A stretch of 64,000 nt of DNA, from positions 248,001 to 312,000 of the forward strand of contig JASPKZ010008351.1 in assembly GCA_030220185.1 (NCBI GenBank). Reading direction: 5' to 3'. The stretch comes from Diploptera punctata. Taxonomy: Eukaryota > Arthropoda > Insecta > Blattodea > Blaberidae. Below, in pieces: positions 7,294 to 55,147 of the stretch (position 1 is the stretch's first letter; each line of letters starts with the position of its first letter). The notes under the pieces were generated by a model that worked only from the letters and a program-made list of their open reading frames with translations, was not told the origin of the DNA and did no database searches. Made by a program: the position numbers and the translations under genes.

Positions 7294-7627
7294 ATCTTGT
7301 ATCTTGTAAGCCCAGAGATTTAGACGCTCTCCCCCTACAGGAAAGAATTTGAACCATACTAATTTAGTTACACTTGTTTTCGTATAATGTCATTGGAGTG
7401 GTCCGTGGTCATCGTTCCGCCTCATACTGACATCTAGGACACCAAGGTAGTACTAGGACGGGAAAATTCGGTACAGTTTGCTTAGAGGCCTTTTCATTCA
7501 TGCTTAAGGATCTTTTACGAGCCTGAAAATCTTCAAACTCGGGACCCACGGCTTAAAGTCCCTCCCGGAGGACTTGCTCCTTGGATTTTTCCATCCTAAA
7601 AAAATCCATCGACCCCGGGCCGGGTTT
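7294..7627 (-). mobile_element. SINE-B (type description), head partly lost
   Basis: SINE-B reads on its own strand: tRNA-like head (TCGCGGTGGACTAGTGG, box B GGGTTCAAACCC), then GATGGATT..., AAATCC, CTTTAAGCCGTGGGTCC, CGGAACGCTGACCAC, AAGTGTAACTAAATTAG, GAACGCCTAAATCTCTG and a CTTACAA end. This minus copy keeps the body and 3' end and stops inside box B at its 5' side (CCCGGCCCGGGGTCGATGG). Other copies are at 11.3, 34.2, 35.6, 38.5 and 49.2 kb. Confidence 0.85.
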
Positions 7628-11260: not shown

Positions 11261-11634
11261 TCGGTCGCGGTGGACTAGTGGTTATGCTCCTTGCCTCTGG
11301 TCCCGAGGGTCGCGGGTTCAAACCCGGCCGGGGTCGATGGATTTTTTTTAGGATGAAAAAATCCAAGGAGTAAGTCCTCCGAGAGGGACTTTAAGCCGTG
11401 GGTCTCGAGTCTGAAAATTTTCAGGTTCGTAAAAGATCCTTAAGCCTGAATGAAGAGGCCTCTAAGCAAAATTTACCGAATTTTCCCGTCCTAGTACTAC
11501 ATTGGTTTCCTAAATGTCAGTATGAGGCGGAACGCTGACCACGCACCACTCAAAAAGGACATCTATACGAAAACAAGTGTAACTAAATTAGTATGGTTCA
11601 AAAGGGAAACATGGGCTTACAAGATACAAGAAGA

Positions 11635-16221: not shown

Positions 16222-16497
16222 TTAATAGTGAGTGGAGAACTTATTTTTAACGACTCACCTCATATAATTTCAAATTTCTTTGATACCGACGGTTTCAGAC
16301 AATATCTTGTCCCTCTTCAGTTATGGCTTCCACTGATGAAATTCTATGGTTGTTGATTTCTCTAAGGACACCACCTCTTGTGCTGCCATATTTGGTTGGG
16401 ATTATAAAATTTGTAATTACATTTTTATCCATCGGAATATCGAAGTTCATAGATCGATATTTATTCTTCTGAATGAATATATTTTCCCAAATTGTCA
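16222..16497 (-). pseudogene. Penelope-like C-terminus and 3' end, left arm of a palindrome
   Basis: The minus strand reads LDKPLELTIWENIFIQKNKY, RSMNFDIPMDKN, IIPTKYGSTRGGVLREINNH and EEGQDIV-stop. This matches the PLE C-terminus just after the GIY-YIG nuclease (compare LTIWEKNLYSEEQKQ in the frame at 25.8 kb). The stop overlaps CTGAAGAGGGACAAG...GTCTGAAACC, a hairpin plus GAAA. The copy is the inverted twin of 16,530-16,804, with a 32-bp spacer. Head-to-head copies are a known arrangement for PLE insertions. Confidence 0.75.
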
Positions 16498-16529
16498 ATT
16501 CCAACGGTTTATCCAATTGTTTCAAAAGT

Positions 16530-16804
16530 TGACAATTTGGGAAAAGATATTCATTCAGAAGAATAAATATCGATCTATGAATTTCGATATTCCGGTGGAT
16601 AAAAATTTAATTACAAAGTTTAAAATCCCAACCAAAGATGGCAGCACAAGAGGTGGTGTCCTTAGAGAAATCAACAACCATAGAATTTCATCAGTGGAAG
16701 CCATGACTGAAGAGGGACAAGATATTGTCTGAAACCGTCGGTATCAAAGACTTTGAAATTATATGAGGTGAGTCGTTAAAAATAAGTTCTCCACTCACTA
16801 TTAA
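16530..16804 (+). pseudogene. Penelope-like C-terminus and 3' end, right arm of a palindrome
   Basis: The plus strand reads KLTIWEKIFIQKNKY, RSMNFDIPVDKNLITKF, IPTKDGSTRGGVLREINNHR and EAMTEEGQDIV-stop. It is the mirror of the left arm with scattered substitutions, several of them in the coding part. Around the stop, ACTGAAGAGGGACAAGATAT and TGTCTGAAACCGTCGGTATC allow a GGACAA/TTGTCT stem followed by GAAA and a three-pair ACC/GGT mini-stem. This is the most hammerhead-like tail in the window. Confidence 0.75.
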
Positions 16805-24499: not shown

Positions 24500-24576
24500 T
24501 AGAGTAGAGCATGCCAGCAAATGTTTAGAGGATAAAGGTCTACAACTTAATTATATTAACAAACTATTGCTGTAGT
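24500..24576 (+). pseudogene. LINE group 2 RT sliver
   Basis: GAGCATGCCAGCAAATGTTT and GTCTACAACTTAATTATATT match the segment before the YADD box of the copy at 1.88-1.95 kb. It ends at the PLE frame. Confidence 0.6.
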
Positions 24577-25573
24577 ATTACTAGACTATACCTGAAATTA
24601 GAAAAAGTGGAAATTGAACCCACAGATAGGTTGGTTTCGTTTGATGTAGTTTCACTATTCACAAATGTACCGAAACAAAAAACTTTGGAGATATTGAACA
24701 ATTGGTTAAGAAAAAACAACATAGACAGAGAGATCAAAGAAGATTATTTGAAATTAACTGAGTTATGCATTGACCAAATGTTTTTTACATTCAATGGGAG
24801 TTTCTATAGACAAAAATCAGGGCTCTCAATGGGAAACCCATTATCACCTTTCCTGGCAAATTTATTTATGAGCGATTTTGAATGTAAAATCACTAAAGCA
24901 CATCCCACTATGTTTAAATTTTGGAGTAGATATGATGATATAATTTGTATTGTTAAAGAAAAACATGTAGAAGATTCCCTAAAACTATTAAATTTACAGA
25001 GTACAAACATTAAATTCACCAAAGAAATAGAAGACAATAAACAAATACCTTTTTTGGATCTTAAATTGGTCAGAAACGAAGAAAAAAGAAAAATTGAATT
25101 CATGATTCATAGGAAAGAAACTCATACGGAAAATTTTATAAAATCAACAGGGTTCAATCCAATTGGACATAAATTAGCAGCATTTAATAGTTTAACTCAT
25201 AGATTGGTAAACTTACCCTTAAACGAAGAAGATTTCAAACATGAGAAAAAACACATAATCAAAGTAGCAAGAGAAAATGGGTTTGATGAAAAAATGGTAC
25301 ATAATAGGATAGAAAAGTATAAAAAACAAAAAATGATAAAGAGAAGTAATCTTGAAAAAGAAGAACCACCTATGAAAAAATATAAGAAATTCACATATCA
25401 CCCCTGGGTACATAATACATTTCAAAATATATTTGAGAAGTTTAATATTAAATTAGCACCAAAAAATAACTACAGTTTAAATAAACTAATAAAAACCAAC
25501 ACAAAAATGAAAAAAAAAACTGATAAAAATAAAAAGTCAGGAATATATCAAATTGAATGCATGGGTTGTGAAA

Positions 25574-25623
<50 letters not shown>

Positions 25624-25842
25624 AAAACAAAAAGAAACCTAAAAATTAGAACCAAAGAACACATAAGAAATATTAAAAATGGAGAAATTGAAAAATCTGC
25701 AGTTGCTGCTCATGTTTGGTCTGAAAAACATAATATAAATTCAGACACTAAATTATTAACACAGTTAGAAAATACAAAAGAGCTGACTATTTGGGAAAAA
25801 AATTTATATTCAGAAGAACAGAAACAGAGTTATGGATTTTGA
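24577..25842 (+). CDS. Penelope-like retroelement RT + GIY-YIG endonuclease, 5'-truncated
   Basis: The Met at 24,607 opens a 411-residue frame, and homologous sequence extends a few codons upstream. RT motifs in order (residue numbers from 24,607): SFDVVSLFTNVP (about 11-22), GLSMGNPLSPFLANLFM (about 73-89), the catalytic box as RYDDIICI (about 108) where PLEs normally read YVDDI, and IPFLDLKL (about 147). A Lys-rich linker leads to the nuclease: GIYQIECMGCEK (about 315), the YIG motif, then the GKTKRNLKIRTKEH block and the C-terminal KELTIWEKNLYSEEQ. The fingers/N-terminus are missing. Two lesions sit in catalytic motifs: one residue lost from YVDDI, and a run of 12 extra residues in front of YIG. 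Otherwise the frame is open, so decay is recent. The element primes reverse transcription at nicks made by its nuclease. Function here is unlikely. Confidence 0.9.
25576..25620. repeat. In-frame (AT)n inside the PLE nuclease YIG motif
   Basis: 45 nt of alternating AT encode Ile-Tyr repeats directly before the Gly of YIG. The length is a multiple of three, so the frame survives. A normal PLE has only three codons of this pattern here. Confidence 0.95.
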
Positions 25843-34224: not shown

Positions 34225-34612
34225 TTTACTATTATTGCCTCTGGTCCCGAGGGTCGCGGGTTCAAACCCGGCCGGGGTCGATGGATTTTTTTTAGGATGG
34301 AAAAATCCATGGAGCAAGTCCTCCGGGAGGGACTTTAACCCGTGGGTCCCGAGTATGAAGATTTTTAGGCTCGTAAAAGATCCTTAAGCCTGAATGAAAA
34401 GGCCTCTAAGGAAAATTTACCGAATTTTCCCGTCCTAGTACTATCTTGGTTTCTTAGATGTCAGTATGATGCGGAACGCTGACCACGGACCACTCAAATG
34501 ACATCTATACGAAAACGAGGGTAACTAAATTGGTATGGTTCAAATTCTTCCCTGTAGGTGAAGAACGCCTAAATCTCTGTTAAGGGAAACATGGGCTTAC
34601 AATATTATAAGA
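34225..34612 (+). mobile_element. SINE-B, 5'-truncated, inserted in family F
   Basis: It lacks the first 25 bp of the tRNA head (starts TTGCCTCTGGTCCCGAGGG; box B GGGTTCAAACCC intact) and has the full body and 3' end (GAACGCCTAAATCTCTG, GGGCTTACAATATT). Family F resumes directly after it, so SINE-B is the younger. Confidence 0.88.
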
Positions 34613-34765
34613 AGATTTATTATTTTGAAAATACTATCGCGCAAAAAATAATGTACAACGCACGTTTGTGAAGTGTTTTACAGAATCTCGAAAATTAAAA
34701 ACCACGCTATCGCTCGGTTTTTAAACATTTTCCTCCATTTTGTAAAAACCACTTGCCAACCTCCT
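34613..34765 (+). repeat. Family F, copy 2, right part
   Basis: GATTTATTATTTTGAAAATA, AATGTACAACGCACGTTTG and TGTAAAAACCACTTGCCAAC continue the sequence interrupted at 34,224. Confidence 0.75.
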
Positions 34766-35575: not shown

Positions 35576-35611
35576 CTATGAGTCATTAAATCCATACTTT
35601 TCTAATTCCAA

Positions 35612-35839
35612 TCGGCCGCAGAGGACTAGTGATTATGCTCATTGCCTCTGATTCCAAGGGTCGCTGGTTCAAACCCGGCCGTGGTCTATGGATATTTTAG
35701 GACGGAAAAATCCAAGGAGCAAGTCCTCTGGGAGGGACTTTAAGTCGTGGATCCCGAGTCTGAAGATTTTTAGGCTGATAAAAGATCCTTGAGCCTGAAT
35801 AAAGAGGCCTCTAAGCAAAATTTCCCGACATCAACGTCC
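35612..35839 (+). mobile_element. SINE-B, left part of a split copy
   Basis: Head (CGGCCGCAGAGGACTAGTGA; box B GGTTCAAACCC) and body up to ATCAACGTCCTAATAATACC. The copy resumes at 37,193 after a 1.33-kb insertion flanked by a 13-bp duplication. Confidence 0.85.
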
Positions 35840-37305: not shown

Positions 37306-37518
37306 GTAGAGGCTATGGCTCAACAATGGGCTACTCCATTATAGATAATCTAAACTACAGATCGAGGGCGACCACAAGAAAAAATCCTCCGGTCCTACTG
37401 GAATTCTAACCTCTAGGATCTCATGAAATGCAGCCATTAAGGTCTGACAAATTACCATGAGATTGGCCGAAAATCAATATTAAATATTTACAAATTATAT
37501 TTGAAGAGAAAAATTATA

Positions 37519-37592
37519 CGCTCAGACCGGGACTTGAACCCGGGACCCTTGGTTCTCTAGACCAAGTGCTCTACCAACTGAGCTACCTGAGC
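37519..37592 (-). tRNA. tRNA-like gene, left arm copy
   Basis: A full cloverleaf can be drawn: acceptor GCTCAGG/TCTGAGC (seven pairs, one G-U), D-arm GCTC...GAGC with AGTTGGTA loop, T-arm CCGGG-TTCAAGT-CCCGG, discriminator G. The anticodon arm is odd: CTTGGTCTAGAGAACCAAG forms six pairs around CTAGAGA, giving AGA as the nominal anticodon, but there is one base too many between D-arm and anticodon stem and no long variable arm as tRNA-Ser would need. Box A (TAGCTCAGTTGG) and box B (GGTTCAAGTCC) are intact. It is a tRNA or a very well-kept tRNA-derived SINE head. The isotype is uncertain. Confidence 0.65.
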
Positions 37593-37946
37593 AAGTACCG
37601 ATCTAAACGCAAATCTTTCTCTATATATATTGTAATTCCCATCCACCAAATGCTGTGAAGCCATGCTTCTATCTTGCAAATGGCGGCTCCTTTATTAAGA
37701 AGACATATTTGGGAATTATACATTACGTATAATTTTTCTCTTCAAATATGATTTATCCATCATTGAGATGTACGAAATCAATAATAAAAACTTGGAAAAA
37801 GCCGTACTGGCTGTAATGTATAATTCCCAAATATGTCTTCTTAATAAAGGAGCCGCCATTTGCAAGATAGAAGCATGGCTTCACAGCATTTGGTGGATGG
37901 GAATTACAATGTATATAGAGAAAGATTTGCGTTTAGATCGGTACTT

Positions 37947-38020
37947 GCTCAGGTAGCTCAGTTGGTAGAGCACTTGGTCTAGAGAACCAAGGGTCCCGGG
38001 TTCAAGTCCCGGTCTGAACG
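37947..38020 (+). tRNA. tRNA-like gene, right arm copy
   Basis: Identical to the left-arm copy except for one base in the acceptor 3' strand (TCTGAAC instead of TCTGAGC), which breaks the second acceptor pair. Upstream DNA (AGATCGGTACTT) is also shared, so more than the tRNA was duplicated. Confidence 0.6.
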
Positions 38021-38094
38021 TATAATTTTTCTCTTCAAATATGATTTATCCATCATTGAGATGTACGAAATCAATAATAAAAAATTTACAAATT

Positions 38095-38464: not shown

Positions 38465-38788
38465 GTCGCCCGCGGTGAACTAGTGGTTATGCTCCTTGTC
38501 TCTGGTCCCAAGGGTCGCAGGTTCAAACCCGGCCGGGGTCGATGGATTTTATAGGACGGAAAAATCCAAGGAGCATGTCCTCCGGGAGGGACTTTAAGCC
38601 GTGGGTCCCGAGTATGAAGATTTTCAGGCTCGTTAAAAATCCTTAAGCCTGAATGAAAAGGCATCTAAGCAAAATTTACCGAATTTTCCCGTCCTAGTAC
38701 TTATTTGGTTTCCTAGATGTCAGTATGAGGCGGAACGCTGACCACGTACCACTCAAAATGACATCTATACGAAACAAGTGTAATTAAA
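38465..38788 (+). mobile_element. SINE-B, left part, interrupted by a LINE
   Basis: Head TCGCCCGCGGTGAACTAGTG, box B GGTTCAAACCC, and body to AAACAAGTGTAATTAAATTA. The remaining 65 bp follow at 39,226. Confidence 0.9.
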
Positions 38789-39225
38789 TTAGGGAAAACA
38801 CTTACTTACTCACTGGGACTATCGAACCCGTAGGTTCATGGCCGCGCGGACATAAGCTCTCCATACATCCCTATCCTGAGATAATGCTTTCCAATCATTC
38901 CCTGTAGAATCTACTTCCCTCAAATCATAGTTAATGTTACTCTCCCACCGCATTCTTGGTCTACCAACTGGACGTTTTCCCTCTGGCTTTCCTACAAGAA
39001 GCTTCCATGCAAGTCTTTTATTCCCCATACGTGCAACATGTCCTGTCCATCGCAGTCTACGAGACTTAACTGTTCTTATTATATTTGGCTTCCTATAAAG
39101 ACCATGTAGTTCATTGTTAGCCTATGTAGTCTTCTCCATTCACCTGTCTGTTCATCTCTCTTTGGTCCAAATATTTTCCTAAGTACTTTATTCTCAAATA
39201 CTTGTAATCTTATTTCCTCCTTATG
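38789..39225 (-). pseudogene. LINE group 2 3' end inserted in SINE-B
   Basis: The minus frame at 38,819-39,028 reads MGNKRLAWKLLVGKPEGK, RPVGRPRMRWESNINYDLRE, VDSTGNDWKALSQDRDVWRA, YVRAAMNLRVR-stop. The tail on the minus strand is GTGAGTAAGTAAGTG, a GTAA variant of the family's tandem tail. Upstream coding (GPKRDEQTGEW) follows up to the 5' truncation at 39,225. Confidence 0.88.
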
Positions 39226-43140: not shown

Positions 43141-43375
43141 TCCCTGAGTGCGTACTGTGATATATTGACACTGGAACTTGTTCAGTATAGGCATGCGAAA
43201 AATACCTATTCCCATAATGGTTATTATATGAACATCTGATTAGAAATTACTTCAGTATCAGTCGCATTTCATGAAAGCATCATGGAACACCTTCACAGTT
43301 ATGCTCAACTTTCAACACTTTTAAAATGCATCGTTGAGGTTATGTAATAAGATAATAAATATAAAATTGGTACCT

Positions 43376-43590
43376 GGTAGGTCAGTAGTACTCAACTAAA
43401 TTATTAATTTTCATTAAGGAGTTCCAATATGTAGGCCTTTCAAAAACAATTGCTTCATCTTCTGCAACCAGTTAAATTGCAGAAGATGAAGCATTATTTT
43501 TTAAAGGCCTCCATATTCGAACTACTTAATGAAGTTCGATTATTTAGTTGAGGACGACTGACCTACAAGGTACCAATTTTATATTTAATA
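43376..43590. repeat. Head-to-head Penelope-like tails (palindrome)
   Basis: The left arm (43,376-43,480, read on the minus strand) and right arm (43,475-43,590, plus) both read TTGCAGAAGATGAAGC, hairpin, TGAAAGGCCT or TAAAGGCCT, TTTAGTTGAG, CTGACCTAC, GGTACCAATTTTA. About 85% identity, no coding part left. Confidence 0.65.
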
Positions 43591-43608
43591 TCTTATGCTG
43601 AACTTGTC

Positions 43609-48790: not shown

Positions 48791-49214
48791 ATTAAGTAAC
48801 GTTTAAAGCGATTACAAGTAAAACAGGCTACTTTACTGTCACGGTTACAATGTTCATAGTTGCAAAAACCTAATTGATACGTGACTGATACATATAGATC
48901 TTAAACGTTACTTGTAACGTTTAAGACAACTGTGTTATGAGTATTGAGCCCGGATTTGTATGCGAAATGCATGGTCTTGTTACGCATTAAAAAGTAGGCG
49001 GAAATGATTTACATGTTAAGTAGCCCCTTCACTGACAATTTGAGCGGTATTTGATAATGCATAGAAATGCATATTCCGGGGGAAAATGCTTATTTTAGAT
49101 TTTTAATGCATAAATGCATATTTTACTCCTAAATGTGATATTAAATTATAAATTTCCCATCAGCTAATTATTAGTAATTAATTAAATAATTATTTTTAAT
49201 TATTATTAAACCCA
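48791..49214. other. Unassigned; TGCATAT-rich segment at 49,055-49,140
   Basis: The segment ATGCATAGAAATGCATATTC ... AATGCATAAATGCATATTTT resembles the DNA beside both hAT C-termini (10.1 and 49.9 kb) and may be one end of the hAT remnant interrupted by the SINE-B at 49.2 kb. Confidence 0.35.
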
Positions 49215-49599
49215 TGTTCTCCCTTTACAGAGATTTAGGCGCTTTCCCTCTACAGGGAAGAATTTGAACCATACTAATTTAGTTACACTTGTTTTCGTAT
49301 AGATGTAATGTTGAGTGGTCCGTGGTTTACGTTCCGCCTCATACTGACATCTAGGAAACCAAGGTAGTACTAGGACGGGAAAATTCAATAAATTTTGCTT
49401 AGAGGCCTTTTCCTTCAGGCTTAGGGGTCTTTCATGAACCTGAAAATCTTCAGACTCGGGAACCACGGCTTAAAGTCCCTCCCGGAGGACTTGCTCCTTG
49501 GATTTTTCCATCCTAAGAAATCCATTGACGCCGGCCGGGTTTGAACCCGCGACCCTCGGGACTAGAGGCAAGGAGCATAACCACTAGTCCACCGCGGCA
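49215..49599 (-). mobile_element. SINE-B, full head
   Basis: Complete in inverse orientation, from TCTCCCTTTACAGAGATTTA (3' end) to CCACTAGTCCACCGCGG (head). Box B on its own strand is GGGTTCAAACCC. It lies between TGCATAT-rich DNA and the hAT C-terminus. Confidence 0.9.
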
Positions 49600-51056: not shown

Positions 51057-52727
51057 TCATGGGGGTCTGGTAAATATGTTTTTGTGGACAGCACGCCGCT
51101 GTAGCCCGTGGCCTATATTGTGAACAATAGGGTTCGAATGAGTTTGAATAGTTTGGAACATGTGTTCCACTCTGTCATTAATTTGGGTCGCAATATATGG
51201 CATATTGGCTAGGTTGTGCAACTCTGCGATCCTCGTGTATAGCGGGGCCGAAAATATGATTTTTAAACATTTGTTTTGAATTATTTGAACTTTATTTTTG
51301 TGGCAAGCAGCGAGGATGCTCCAGGCTTCACAACCGTATAGCAGCATGCTACGGATCACAGCTGTATATAAGGTTAGCTTGATCCGAGATGGCAGTGTAG
51401 GAGACTTGAAAAATGGATATAGTATGGCAATTGCCGCATTTGACTGGTGAAGAAGATGTCTAATGTGAATTTTGAAAGTTAGCTTGGAATCCAGGTGAAT
51501 TCCAAGATACTTGACTGAAGTCTCCAGGGCCAATTGATGGGTTCCCAAGGTGAGTTGGATAGGGCTTCGTCTACTGGATTTTGTAAATAAAACAGCTTTT
51601 GTTTTATTAACGTTAAGTTTGATGTTCCAGAGACGAAGCCAGGAGTGGATGGTATTTAGTGCCGATTGGAGCACTAGGATGCGGCGTTCAAGTAGTCGGA
51701 AAGGTGTTTGATGATACACACAGGTGTCATCAGCAAAGGAAGCTATTTGGATACGGTTCGGAGTTGGAATATCAGACACATAAAGTGTGTACAAGATGGG
51801 TGAAAGGACTGCACCTTGGGGAACTCCTGCCAAGAGGGGCTTGCAGTTAGAGTGACACCCACTAATAGACACATAGAATTGTCGATTAGTTAGGTACGTA
51901 GCAAGTAATTTGATCAAGTCTGCCGAAATTTGAAATTTGATTAATTTATATAGTAATCCATTTATCCAAGTCGTGTCGAAAGCTTTCTCAATGTCTAAGA
52001 ATACTGCTAGTGTGCTTTTCTTGTTGTTGAAGCCCGTAACAACCTCGTCAATCAGTCTAGCAAGCTGTAGCGGAGTGCTGTGAGTTTTCCGAAAGCCGAA
52101 TTGATGGTTTGGAATTAGGTCTAGAGTTGAGACCTCGCGTTTTAGTTTCGAAAGAATTACATTCTCCATTACTTTGCCCAGTACTGGTAGAAGACTGATT
52201 GGTCGTAGGTTGTCAGGATTAGAAGGGTCTTTTCCAGGTTTAGGAATAGCGATTACTTTGGCTTTTTTCCATACTTCTGGGAAGTATTGGAATTTAAAGC
52301 AAAGCTTCACTATTTGGAGAAATAGGACTAAGGCTTTTAGCGGCAAGTGTTTGACCGCAAGGCATGGTATTCGGTCGTGTCCAGGGGAACGGTTTGATGG
52401 AAGTTTTTTGATTACGTTTGTCAATTCCGACATCCGTATATCTGGAAGAGTGAGAGGGATGGGTCTCTCAAGAAAAGCACTTACTGTATGGTGTACTTCA
52501 GCTTCGTGAGCAGGTGTAGTGAGCTCATGTGGACGAAACCTTGATGCCAAGTGTTCCGAGAGGATCTGGGCTTTATCTCGCGGGAGATAGGCCCAGTTGC
52601 CATTGTGATGGATGGCAGATGGAGGAGGCTGTGCTCGACTCCTTTTAATACGTTTTAGAATCTCCCATGGAGGAGTTTTAGATTCAGAGAAACGCTGCAT
52701 GGAAGATTCCCAATCGCCGTTTCTCAT
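51057..52727 (-). CDS. Jockey-type ORF2, reverse-transcriptase part
   Basis: 556 codons are open, and the same frame continues upstream without a stop to about 52,860 (HDPTLQNYLNEKRRYLKLYR). Motifs in order: KLPSNRSPGHDRIP (about 110), WKKAKVIAIPKPGKDP (about 155), YRPIS-like LRPISLLPVLGKVME (about 180), FLDIEKAFDTTW (about 245, first catalytic Asp), GVPQGAVLSPILY (about 305), SFADDTCVY (about 335, catalytic Asp pair, FADD instead of YADD as in many Jockey elements), LNVNKTKAVLF and KYLGIHLDSKLTF. The C-terminus has LLYGCEAW. This is the target-primed RT of the element, separated from its endonuclease by one frameshift. Confidence 0.92.
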   Translation of the reverse strand: MRNGDWESSMQRFSESKTPPWEILKRIKRSRAQPPPSAIHHNGNWAYLPRDKAQILSEHLASRFRPHELTTPAHEAEVHHTVSAFLERPIPLTLPDIRMSELTNVIKKLPSNRSPGHDRIPCLAVKHLPLKALVLFLQIVKLCFKFQYFPEVWKKAKVIAIPKPGKDPSNPDNLRPISLLPVLGKVMENVILSKLKREVSTLDLIPNHQFGFRKTHSTPLQLARLIDEVVTGFNNKKSTLAVFLDIEKAFDTTWINGLLYKLIKFQISADLIKLLATYLTNRQFYVSISGCHSNCKPLLAGVPQGAVLSPILYTLYVSDIPTPNRIQIASFADDTCVYHQTPFRLLERRILVLQSALNTIHSWLRLWNIKLNVNKTKAVLFTKSSRRSPIQLTLGTHQLALETSVKYLGIHLDSKLTFKIHIRHLLHQSNAAIAILYPFFKSPTLPSRIKLTLYTAVIRSMLLYGCEAWSILAACHKNKVQIIQNKCLKIIFSAPLYTRIAELHNLANMPYIATQINDRVEHMFQTIQTHSNPIVHNIGHGLQRRAVHKNIFTRPP

Positions 52728-52827
52728 TTCTGTTAGGCGGTTTCGTACCAGATGAGCGTATCTGTTGTATAGCTGTTTGTGATGGGGTGCTCCGAAAGTT
52801 CGATACAGTTTGAGATATCGTCGTTTT

Positions 52828-53751
52828 TCATTTAAATAATTTTGCAGTGTAGGGTCGTGTGGTTTTTGTTTCTGCAGTGTTATCTGTTCGTGTAGTTGCT
52901 AGTGTAATGGCCGTTTTTATAGTGGCCTGTAGGCTAAGGACTTCGTGTTCTAGTTGTTCTGTAGACTGGACAGAGAGTGTAGGTTTAATCCATTGATTAA
53001 GCATGTGTGTGTAATTCTGCCAGTCTGTGTTATCATGATGCTTGTGTATGGGAGAGGACATTAAAAATGTAGGACTGATTTTAAATAGTATCGGACAGTG
53101 GTCCGAGTCGAGTATGTCTGTAATTGTAGTTATGTGTGGAGAGATAGGGACATTCTTAGAGAGTGCGATATCAAGAATATCTGTTCTGAGTCCGAATCGG
53201 GAGTTTCTAAAGAATGTGTGATCCCTTGGAGCAGAGATTTCTATATTATGAAGTTGGCAGTAGCGTTGTAGTACTACACCAGATCCATTTTGGACACGAC
53301 AATTCCAATAGAGGTGTTTACTGTTGAAGTCTCCTGCTAACAGATAGTTAGGAGAGACAGATGTGAGAGCATCTAGGTCGTGTCTCGTTAGGAGTCTGGT
53401 GGGAGATTTATATATTGATGCTAAATAAATATTTTCCCGGTCAGAGATGGGCAGAAATATGGCAGTGGCTTCAATGAATTGAAGCCGAGGTGTTGGAGCC
53501 ACTCTATGGCCAATGGAGTGCTTTATGCATATAGCAGTGCCTCCAAGGGGACCGTTTAATCGGTCATTTCTATAAGTGAAATATTGCGGAATTTTGAACT
53601 TATCTCGCGGCTTTAAATGTGTTTCATTTAATAAAAGAATGTCAATATCTCTCTCTTGTACAAAAGTGATGAGCTCTTTGATTTGCCTCGCTACACCGTT
53701 TGCGTTAAACGCAGCGACATTGAGATAGCTTCCGTTTTTGTACCTAGCCAT
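52828..53751 (-). CDS. Jockey-type ORF2, APE-like endonuclease part
   Basis: ATG at 53,749-53,751 lies 8 nt inside the end of ORF1 (ATGGCTAG contains the ORF1 stop), the usual spacing for reinitiation in Jockey elements and the reason for choosing this start. Motifs: VAAFNANGV (about 12), LLLNETHLKP (about 38, catalytic Glu), YLASIYKSP (about 112), LLAGDFNSKHLYWN (about 137, Asp/Asn pair), RTDILDIALSK (about 190) and DILDSDHCPILF (about 213, SDH). All catalytic residues expected for the fold are present. The frame stops at 52,828 only because of a 1-nt frameshift at about 52,830-52,890. The RT frame overlaps this segment. Confidence 0.92.
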   Translation of the reverse strand: MARYKNGSYLNVAAFNANGVARQIKELITFVQERDIDILLLNETHLKPRDKFKIPQYFTYRNDRLNGPLGGTAICIKHSIGHRVAPTPRLQFIEATAIFLPISDRENIYLASIYKSPTRLLTRHDLDALTSVSPNYLLAGDFNSKHLYWNCRVQNGSGVVLQRYCQLHNIEISAPRDHTFFRNSRFGLRTDILDIALSKNVPISPHITTITDILDSDHCPILFKISPTFLMSSPIHKHHDNTDWQNYTHMLNQWIKPTLSVQSTEQLEHEVLSLQATIKTAITLATTRTDNTAETKTTRPYTAKLFK

Positions 53752-55147
53752 TGGTACGGTAGCACATACTTACCAGATTGGCAATAAACGAGAATTTTTC
53801 CTCCGGCGTTTTCATTGTAGCCAATAGAGGCTCAATGTTCCGGAGGAACTCTTGTCCATTGCCTGTTATGGGCATGAGTGAACAGGGACCAGTCTGTTCC
53901 TTAGCAGTGCTTACAATTGTGTCGTTAGGTTTGGGACCTGCAGCAATTTGGCTGAAGGATACTTGGGGATTGATGGGCTTAGAAGTAAAGGTCCTGGATT
54001 TGGGAACTGTAGGATTTGGGGTATTTTTTGGTTTTAGGAAAGCAGTTTTCGCTGCAACGTAAGCAGGACATTCTCGATAGGATGCGGGATGTCCTGTTGC
54101 ACCACAATTTGCGCACTTTAATTTAGATTTGTCAGTTAGAGCGTCAGCTTTAACGTGACAATTTGAATGGTTGTGTGGACCAGCACAAATCACGCAGCGT
54201 GGTGTAAGGCTGCATCCCGCATAGGTGTGGTTAAAGTTCTGGCAATTGAAGCACTGCTTTAGGCCAGATCTTGGTTTATATGGTTCCACTGCGACTACAG
54301 TATAATAGAGGCTCTTTAGGTTATATATTTCTTTGCCTAGATCGTTGTTTTCCAACTCTAGGATGAAAAGTGGCAGTGGGATGACTTTGTTTTCATCTTT
54401 TTTACTAATTTGCCTGACTGATAGTATGGGGTAATTTAGTTCTTTCAATTCTTCGTATATGTCGTGAATGGATATGTTAGAGGGAAGCCTCTTCAATATT
54501 ACTTTCAGTGGCAGGTCTTTCTTCATCATGTACGTGTAATATTGTTTACCTAAGTTTTTAAAATACTCAATGAGAATTTTATGGTCTGCCACTGTAGCAG
54601 CGTAGTAACGCAGACCTTCTCGAGTACTAACAACTCTCGGATCTTGTGTTAGTTTCTTTGAAGTTCGAAGTTCTTTATTCATTTTTGATAGGTCGGAGTG
54701 ACCCATAACCGTGATTGGTGGCGGTCGTGATTCTTTCCTTGTTGGTACTCGAGAAGGTTGCGAGCTTTGTGTCGCAGTGGAAACCCTAGGCTCTTGGGAT
54801 GGTCCAGGCTGAGGTCTATTTTGTGACGGACCAGGCTGAGGTTGACTTTGTGTTGGAGTGATGGTCTCATCCATTTCGCTTAAAATCGAGAATGGATTGT
54901 AGACCGGCACTGTAGGCGTGAAGGGCACGGTAGGCACATGTTCTGAAGGAGTTTCTTGTCTCCTCCTTTTGATCTCTTGATCGAGGGTTTCAAGAGTCTT
55001 TTGCGCTGTTTGTTTAGAGCCATTATGGCTCTTTATATTTTTGTTGGATGACGATGTGGTTTTAGTTGGCGCTACTTTGTTAGTAGAGGGCTCTATAGGT
55101 ATTTTTGCTGTGTTAAAACAGCATGCTGTCTGTATATTAAAAGCCAT
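53744..55147 (-). CDS. Jockey-type ORF1 (Gag-like, zinc knuckles), main part
   Basis: 467 codons. The first part is Pro/Gln/Ser-rich. The core (about 150-300) has RYYAATVADHKILIEYFKN, LPLKVILKRLPSNISIHDIY and VVAVEPYKPRSGLKQCFNC. Three CCHC knuckles follow: CFNCQNFNHTYAGC (CX2CX4HX4C), CVICAGPHNHSNC (CX2CX3HX4C) and CANCGATGHPASYREC (CX2CX4HX6C). This is the nucleic-acid-binding Gag of Jockey elements, which coats the RNA. The Met at 55,147 may not be the native start: an upstream frame overlaps it, so part of the N-terminus is probably displaced by a frameshift. Confidence 0.9.
   Translation of the reverse strand: MAFNIQTACCFNTAKIPIEPSTNKVAPTKTTSSSNKNIKSHNGSKQTAQKTLETLDQEIKRRRQETPSEHVPTVPFTPTVPVYNPFSILSEMDETITPTQSQPQPGPSQNRPQPGPSQEPRVSTATQSSQPSRVPTRKESRPPPITVMGHSDLSKMNKELRTSKKLTQDPRVVSTREGLRYYAATVADHKILIEYFKNLGKQYYTYMMKKDLPLKVILKRLPSNISIHDIYEELKELNYPILSVRQISKKDENKVIPLPLFILELENNDLGKEIYNLKSLYYTVVAVEPYKPRSGLKQCFNCQNFNHTYAGCSLTPRCVICAGPHNHSNCHVKADALTDKSKLKCANCGATGHPASYRECPAYVAAKTAFLKPKNTPNPTVPKSRTFTSKPINPQVSFSQIAAGPKPNDTIVSTAKEQTGPCSLMPITGNGQEFLRNIEPLLATMKTPEEKFSFIANLVSMCYRTNG

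Follow-up and report, generated by a model that had tools for sequence, protein, structure and literature searches.

The stretch of DNA analysed here (the window, 64,000 nucleotides of the Diploptera punctata genome) carries a long palindrome with a tRNA-like gene in each arm. This locus raises the question whether the structure is a local inverted duplication of a tRNA gene or was inserted as a mobile element and, if so, which kind of machinery has moved it.

Anatomy of the palindrome

The preliminary description had proposed two inverse arms of 230 bp with two mismatches, a tRNA-like cloverleaf in each arm, a tail repeated in direct orientation and an 11-bp duplication at both ends. All of these were borne out, except that the tail repeat measures 66 bp rather than 65 bp, its two copies being identical. 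The features are given below; unit positions refer to the 293-bp unit described in the next section.

37486-37496, no strand: target-site duplication, left copy, ATTTACAAATT, 11 bp, abutting the element
37497-37726, minus strand: inverted (left) arm, unit about 252 down to 23, its outer end being the start site near unit 252; 230 bp, reverse complement of 37813-38042 (right arm) with two mismatches
37519-37592, minus strand: tRNA gene of the inverted arm, anticodon AGA (ARAGORN; Rfam tRNA, 60.1 bits)
37725-37790, plus strand: partial direct unit (unit 228-293), starting at the 3' end of the would-be tRNA; 66 bp, identical to 38018-38083
37791-38083, plus strand: full direct unit, 293 bp, numbered unit 1-293 (genome search and mapping on 52 loci)
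37912-37917, plus strand: TATATA, 35 bp upstream of the tRNA, putative promoter element
37947-38020, plus strand: tRNA gene of the direct unit, anticodon AGA (ARAGORN; Rfam tRNA, 54.1 bits; cloverleaf conservation in 12 sequences)
38026-38030, plus strand: T5 run 3' of the tRNA, possible pol III terminator
38043-38083, plus strand: 41-bp tail between the two start sites, with a hairpin (38043-38072) and an A-rich end
38084-38094, no strand: target-site duplication, right copy, abutting the element

Both tRNA genes face outward. The window tRNA was called Ser(AGA) by ARAGORN and lacks the long variable arm that is typical of serine tRNAs. As single-stranded RNA the element is predicted to fold with -454.9 kcal/mol, the mean of 100 shuffled sequences being -130.2 kcal/mol (z -53). 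The left flank of the element (37458-37485) resembles the element tail with a score reached by 5 of 2,000 shuffles and by 11 of 4,200 stretches of the window; this likeness is either an old tail or chance.

A dispersed family of 293-bp units

A genome search, which had been suggested as the check for a mobile family, returned many dispersed copies with their own duplications at each locus. At least 175 matches were obtained with the whole element (40 of 1,183 first-look candidates scored) and at least 98 with the unit (40 of 747 scored). Since the copies are scattered as a mobile family, with duplications that differ from locus to locus, the palindrome is not a local duplication. A 33-base motif of the tail gave, at up to 3 mismatches, 16,954 + 16,815 = 33,769 matches in the 3.12-Gb genome (10,165 contigs), and the reversed motif, used as a control, gave none. 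At 293 bp per unit, rough arithmetic leads to a total family sequence of the order of 10 Mb, in which truncated units are counted too. Two element patterns searched for in viral contigs gave 0 matches each.

The palindrome had been taken as the defining form of the element. This part of the preliminary description was not supported: the repeating entity is a 293-bp unit that occurs in tandem rows of variable length. The window palindrome is a case of about one inverted and one direct unit and is among the smallest insertions of its family. The unit consists of a head (1-156), the tRNA gene (157-230), the T5 run (236-240), a hairpin (253-282) and the A-rich end at 293, and as a whole it folds more stably than any of 200 shuffles (z -5.5). 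When the tandem unit was read in six frames, it gave short frames only and no RT or GIY-YIG frame; one open frame (MYEINNK...) spans the unit junction.

A second subfamily, B, was reached via a diverged copy beside L004. The search gave 2,046 first-look candidates, of which 40 were scored, with copies that match most of the query at up to 98-99%; the spacing near 300 and the head-to-head arrangement are as in the main subfamily. An intermediate diverged copy (L087:119-339) is about 82% identical, and its tRNA reads GGA instead of AGA.

Arms and ends of the insertions

The unit was mapped on 52 non-redundant loci, most of them found by similarity to the window copy; a listed place on contig C6107 was left out. 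This gave 54 clusters, 40 of them two-armed and complete, seven one-armed and seven cut by the locus end. In the 40 complete two-armed insertions inverted units lie head-to-head with direct units. The outer end of the direct arm falls at unit 288-293 in 39/40, and the inverted arm starts at unit 249-262, near 252, in 37/40. The two start sites, 293 and about 252, are 41 bp apart and flank the hairpin 253-282. The 41-bp tail is present on the outer end of the direct arm (39/40) and missing from that of the inverted arm (37/40), departures from this rule as aligned being 3/40 left ends and 1/40 right ends. The shortest arms contain only part of a unit, and the longest have at least 11 units (L031 and L043, both cut by the locus end). 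Among the one-armed insertions, L033 and L034 have the 252 end and L082 and L089 the 293 end, and these fit the use of either start site alone.

The target-site duplications are 12 or 13 bp long in 25 of the 40 two-armed insertions, while three show no duplication by the rule applied. When flanks were paired for 39 insertions (the diverged copy beside L004 was left out), a duplication of at least 9 bp was found in 33/39 own-flank pairings versus 15/1,482 mismatched pairings. As both kinds of end recur in the other insertions, together with duplications of their own, chance is ruled out for the window arrangement, and the claim that the palindrome was inserted as one unit with a target-site duplication is upheld by these end types and by the flank-pairing control.

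A less biased sample was provided by the first 100 exact tail matches, which were unselected by likeness to the element. They fall into 44 clusters, of which 24 contain more than one match and 11 both orientations, and all 11 mixed clusters are ordered inverted-then-direct. Same-strand spacing was mostly 292-296. Both arms were found in five of six small pieces from this list, all six being cut too tightly for both outer ends.

Of the 80 inner cDNA ends, 16 lie at unit 228-231, where the tRNA has its 3' end, with about one expected. By source, these stops amount to 6/18 and 10/44 at loci found with the palindrome as query and to 0/16 at the unit-only loci, which comprise 8 insertions (the diverged copy was left out). 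This hot spot is a lead rather than an established result; the stops could reflect an RNA 5' end produced by 3' processing of the tRNA, or a halt at the folded acceptor stem.

Conservation of the tRNA fold

The cloverleaf was examined in 12 of 13 prepared sequences, L086 being left out as edited and subfamily B being represented by one row. In this set 95.8% of the cells are paired and five pairs are doubly changed, a level that 0/500 shuffles reached, although this control may be inflated by the relatedness of the sequences. One acceptor pair is unpaired in 5/12 rows and one pair of the anticodon stem in 4/12. The tRNA fold has been kept, with compensatory changes in the abundant subfamily B. 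There the anticodon is still AGA, and the cloverleaf is regular because the extra base of subfamily A is missing. The T5 run is intact in 54/54 insertion-majority rows.

A rival helix of 25 bp pairs unit 127-151 with 219-244 (37917-37941 with 38009-38034), that is, the tRNA leader with the 3' half and trailer of the tRNA. Its pairing amounts to 98%, and three pairs have changed on both sides; 10/500 shuffles attained this level. As modelled, this helix would exclude the cloverleaf, and the unit may switch between the two folds as a possible RNA switch. In a seven-unit row no hammerhead family was found at E<=10, and a search for a hammerhead core with at most one mismatch was likewise negative. 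A ribozyme of another type in the unit is possible.

Unit differences and A-to-G changes

The mean difference between units is 1.8% within an arm, 2.4% between the arms of one insertion and 4.4% between insertions, computed on unit positions 13-283 with pairs that are not independent. The large differences of some units in L006, L008, L025 and L030 are mostly deletions.

One insertion, L086 on contig C2700, carries fifteen A-to-G changes at unit 127-279 together with C84T, in every covering unit and in both arms. Nine of its 16 changes occur in no other mapped insertion, and A133G occurs in eight others; among other low-divergence units A-to-G accounts for 73/576 substitutions. Strand-specific clusters of A-to-G changes are the trace of ADAR editing of double-stranded RNA. 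A 42-base marker of the edited sequence gave eight genome matches at up to 2 mismatches. Four of these are exact and lie on C2700 only, in both orientations. Three lie on C7824, likewise in both orientations, and have an extra A-to-G in common; the remaining one, on C2286, has the AAATGG background found in L014 and L085. Because ADAR-type clusters occur in close variants at C2700, C7824 and C2286, RNA editing seems to have struck the family more than once. At C2700 and C7824 the edited monomers seem to have multiplied after editing, as a repeatedly copied circle would, and it is possible that both derive from one edited ancestor. In L036 the inverted and the direct arms have different junction variants, which argues against a single circle in all cases.

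A Penelope-type frame and other repeats in the window

A broken Penelope-type RT frame lies in the window at 24529-25842, with a TA-repeat inside. Pfam identified RVT_1 only; GIY-YIG was not found in this frame by Pfam at E<=10. Among 120 listed relatives of the frame, 19 have GIY-YIG and 10 have both GIY-YIG and RVT_1. The nearest named relatives are from Diploptera punctata itself (63% over 68% of the query, 74% over 33%). The genome gave 384,048 first-look candidates, from which at least 101 copies were scored, many with open frames of 824 aa (the largest 840) and some in tandem with a period of about 2,688 bp. Relatives with 96% identity to the frame are among those with 824-aa open frames and lie in tandem elsewhere in the genome. 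In 601 bases of one copy, comprising the inter-ORF region and the start of the ORF, no sequence shared with units A or B was found above the level of shuffles. As these 601 bases share nothing with the units, this abundant Penelope element is at most a candidate partner of the family.

Several other repeats were observed in the window. At 16222-16804 lies a palindrome of 583 bp (93.5% over its length) with TTAA at both ends, which resembles a fold-back MITE of piggyBac type, and at 43347-43596 one of 250 bp (85%). Another dispersed repeat, with copies 86-92% alike, is present at 7313-7627, 11266-11602, 34235-34621, 35611-35828, 38471-38792 and 49185-49571, and some of its copies start with a tRNA-like stretch. 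A LINE with RT, endonuclease-like and zinc-knuckle-like frames occupies 51057-55147 on the minus strand; it has 6,493 relatives at E<=1e-20, and the nearest named relative of a LINE RT is from the termite Cryptotermes secundus (39%).

Relation to known elements

The preliminary description had been unable to name a known family for this layout. The same layout has been described for Penelope-like elements (PLEs), as extracts of the published accounts, on which the comparisons in this section are based, indicate. Elements of the Penelope/Poseidon clade likewise have tandem units with a shorter inverted copy 5' of them. One of their ends bears a tail of 30-40 bp, their start sites are two neighbouring internal ones, and duplications near 10 bp are found in AT-rich targets (PMC3846280, PMC11167929). 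The typical Penelope insert of Adineta vaga consists of two direct copies and an adjacent shorter inverted copy, with a 31-bp tail and a 9-bp duplication (PMC3846280). The purified Penelope protein of Anolis cuts and extends both target strands; reverse transcription begins at a pair of neighbouring internal positions of the RNA, and what lies between these positions makes up the genomic tail (PMC11167929). Unlike these elements, the 293-bp unit is without an RT or endonuclease frame, no hammerhead was found in it and it carries one tRNA gene per unit.

The retrozymes, for which PLEs have been proposed as movers (PMC7229834), are also similar. The metazoan non-LTR retrozymes are non-autonomous, consist of repeats of about 300 bp in tandem, have target-site duplications and multiply their units at the RNA level. 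However, retrozymes are defined by a type I hammerhead, which was not found in the 293-bp unit, and the extract of PMC7229834 makes no mention of inverted arms. With tRNA-derived SINEs, including those of cockroaches, the unit shares a tRNA-type sequence, duplications and a simple-sequence end, but a SINE begins at the tRNA promoter and consists of a single body with a single tail, whereas the 293-bp units are arranged in tandem and inverted (PMC9191728). With such rows the element is not an ordinary SINE with one head and one tail. Nor is it a SINE with a doubled head, because 156 bp precede the tRNA and the T5 run lies five bases behind it. We classify the element as a non-autonomous Penelope-type element, neither an autonomous PLE (it has no RT frame) nor a retrozyme (it has no hammerhead); what is new is a tRNA gene where the Penelope relatives carry a ribozyme or a frame. 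No comparable published element was found in a literature covered mostly as titles and the beginnings of abstracts, mainly outside subscription journals.

Proposed mechanism and alternatives

The window element is probably, at a rough probability of three in four, a small insertion of an abundant non-autonomous retroelement of about 293 bp with a tRNA-like gene, moved in trans by Penelope-type machinery. Because the two-strand, two-site start of Penelope matches the ends at 293 and about 252, we infer from the anatomy that each insertion consists of two cDNAs, one per target strand, joined inside. The template would be either a multi-unit RNA, transcribed by read-through along a row, or a circular unit that is copied repeatedly. 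Both target strands would be cut, each priming a cDNA, one at unit 293 and the other near 252. The two cDNAs would then traverse a variable number of units before joining inside. For the window copy the direct cDNA would comprise one unit plus 66 nt, ending at the 3' end of the next tRNA, and the inverted cDNA about 230 nt. The tRNA would drive transcription (by pol III, with T5 as a leaky stop), offer a site at which the long RNA is processed, or both. The Penelope-type reverse transcriptase encoded in the genome, in tandem and with long open frames, speaks for the Penelope-type reading. Against it count the 601 bases of the abundant Penelope copy, which have no likeness to the unit, and the fact that the unit has no hammerhead, unlike the known Penelope elements of this clade. 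The departing ends (3/40 left and 1/40 right), the seven one-armed clusters among the 54, and the finding of most mapped loci by likeness to the window copy also weigh against it.

Several other origins were considered. A tRNA-derived SINE could have been moved by an ordinary LINE and its copies inverted by twin priming of the LINE-1 type. The tRNA, the A-rich end and the target-site duplications would be accounted for, and twin priming in human L1 leads to inverted 5' parts with short overlaps, as stated in an extract of PMC12016303. The same extract gives inversions of short elements as rare (0.02% of germline Alu insertions); moreover, the inverted arm begins close to a single fixed position in 37/40 insertions rather than at scattered ones, a single arm can hold a tandem row of at least 11 units (L031, L043) and the tRNA lies internal to the unit. 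We regard this origin as quite improbable. A fold-back DNA transposon or MITE with a captured tRNA gene would explain the long inverted arms, and a second long palindrome is indeed present in the window (16222-16804). With asymmetric ends (the 41-bp tail being on one end only), a variable number of units per arm and one A-rich end, such an origin is hardly credible.

A further alternative accepts the Penelope-type insertion, though of one or two units only, the long rows having arisen later by duplication or unequal exchange at the DNA level. The likeness of the units within rows (1.8% within an arm, 4.4% between insertions) would be expected in this case. Nevertheless, the inverted and direct arms have insertion-wide changes in common, two different loci carry close variants of the edited marker in both orientations, and the rows are still bounded by one duplication, which makes later growth of the rows unlikely. 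For the Penelope-type reading with rows copied from RNA, a more specific and tentative version, which we consider possible but rather doubtful, is a 'tRNA retrozyme': host tRNA processing instead of a self-cleaving ribozyme would cut the multimer, and the unit RNA would be circularised and copied repeatedly from both target strands by the Penelope enzyme, giving the outward-facing rows.

The family offers thousands of natural insertions in which both Penelope-type cDNAs can be read base by base, so that start sites, template length and joining can be measured in a class of enzymes with a largely uncharted cycle. It links a conserved tRNA gene to a Penelope-type cycle where the known relatives have a hammerhead, and its edited rows let the origin of rows from multiplied RNA monomers be tested directly.
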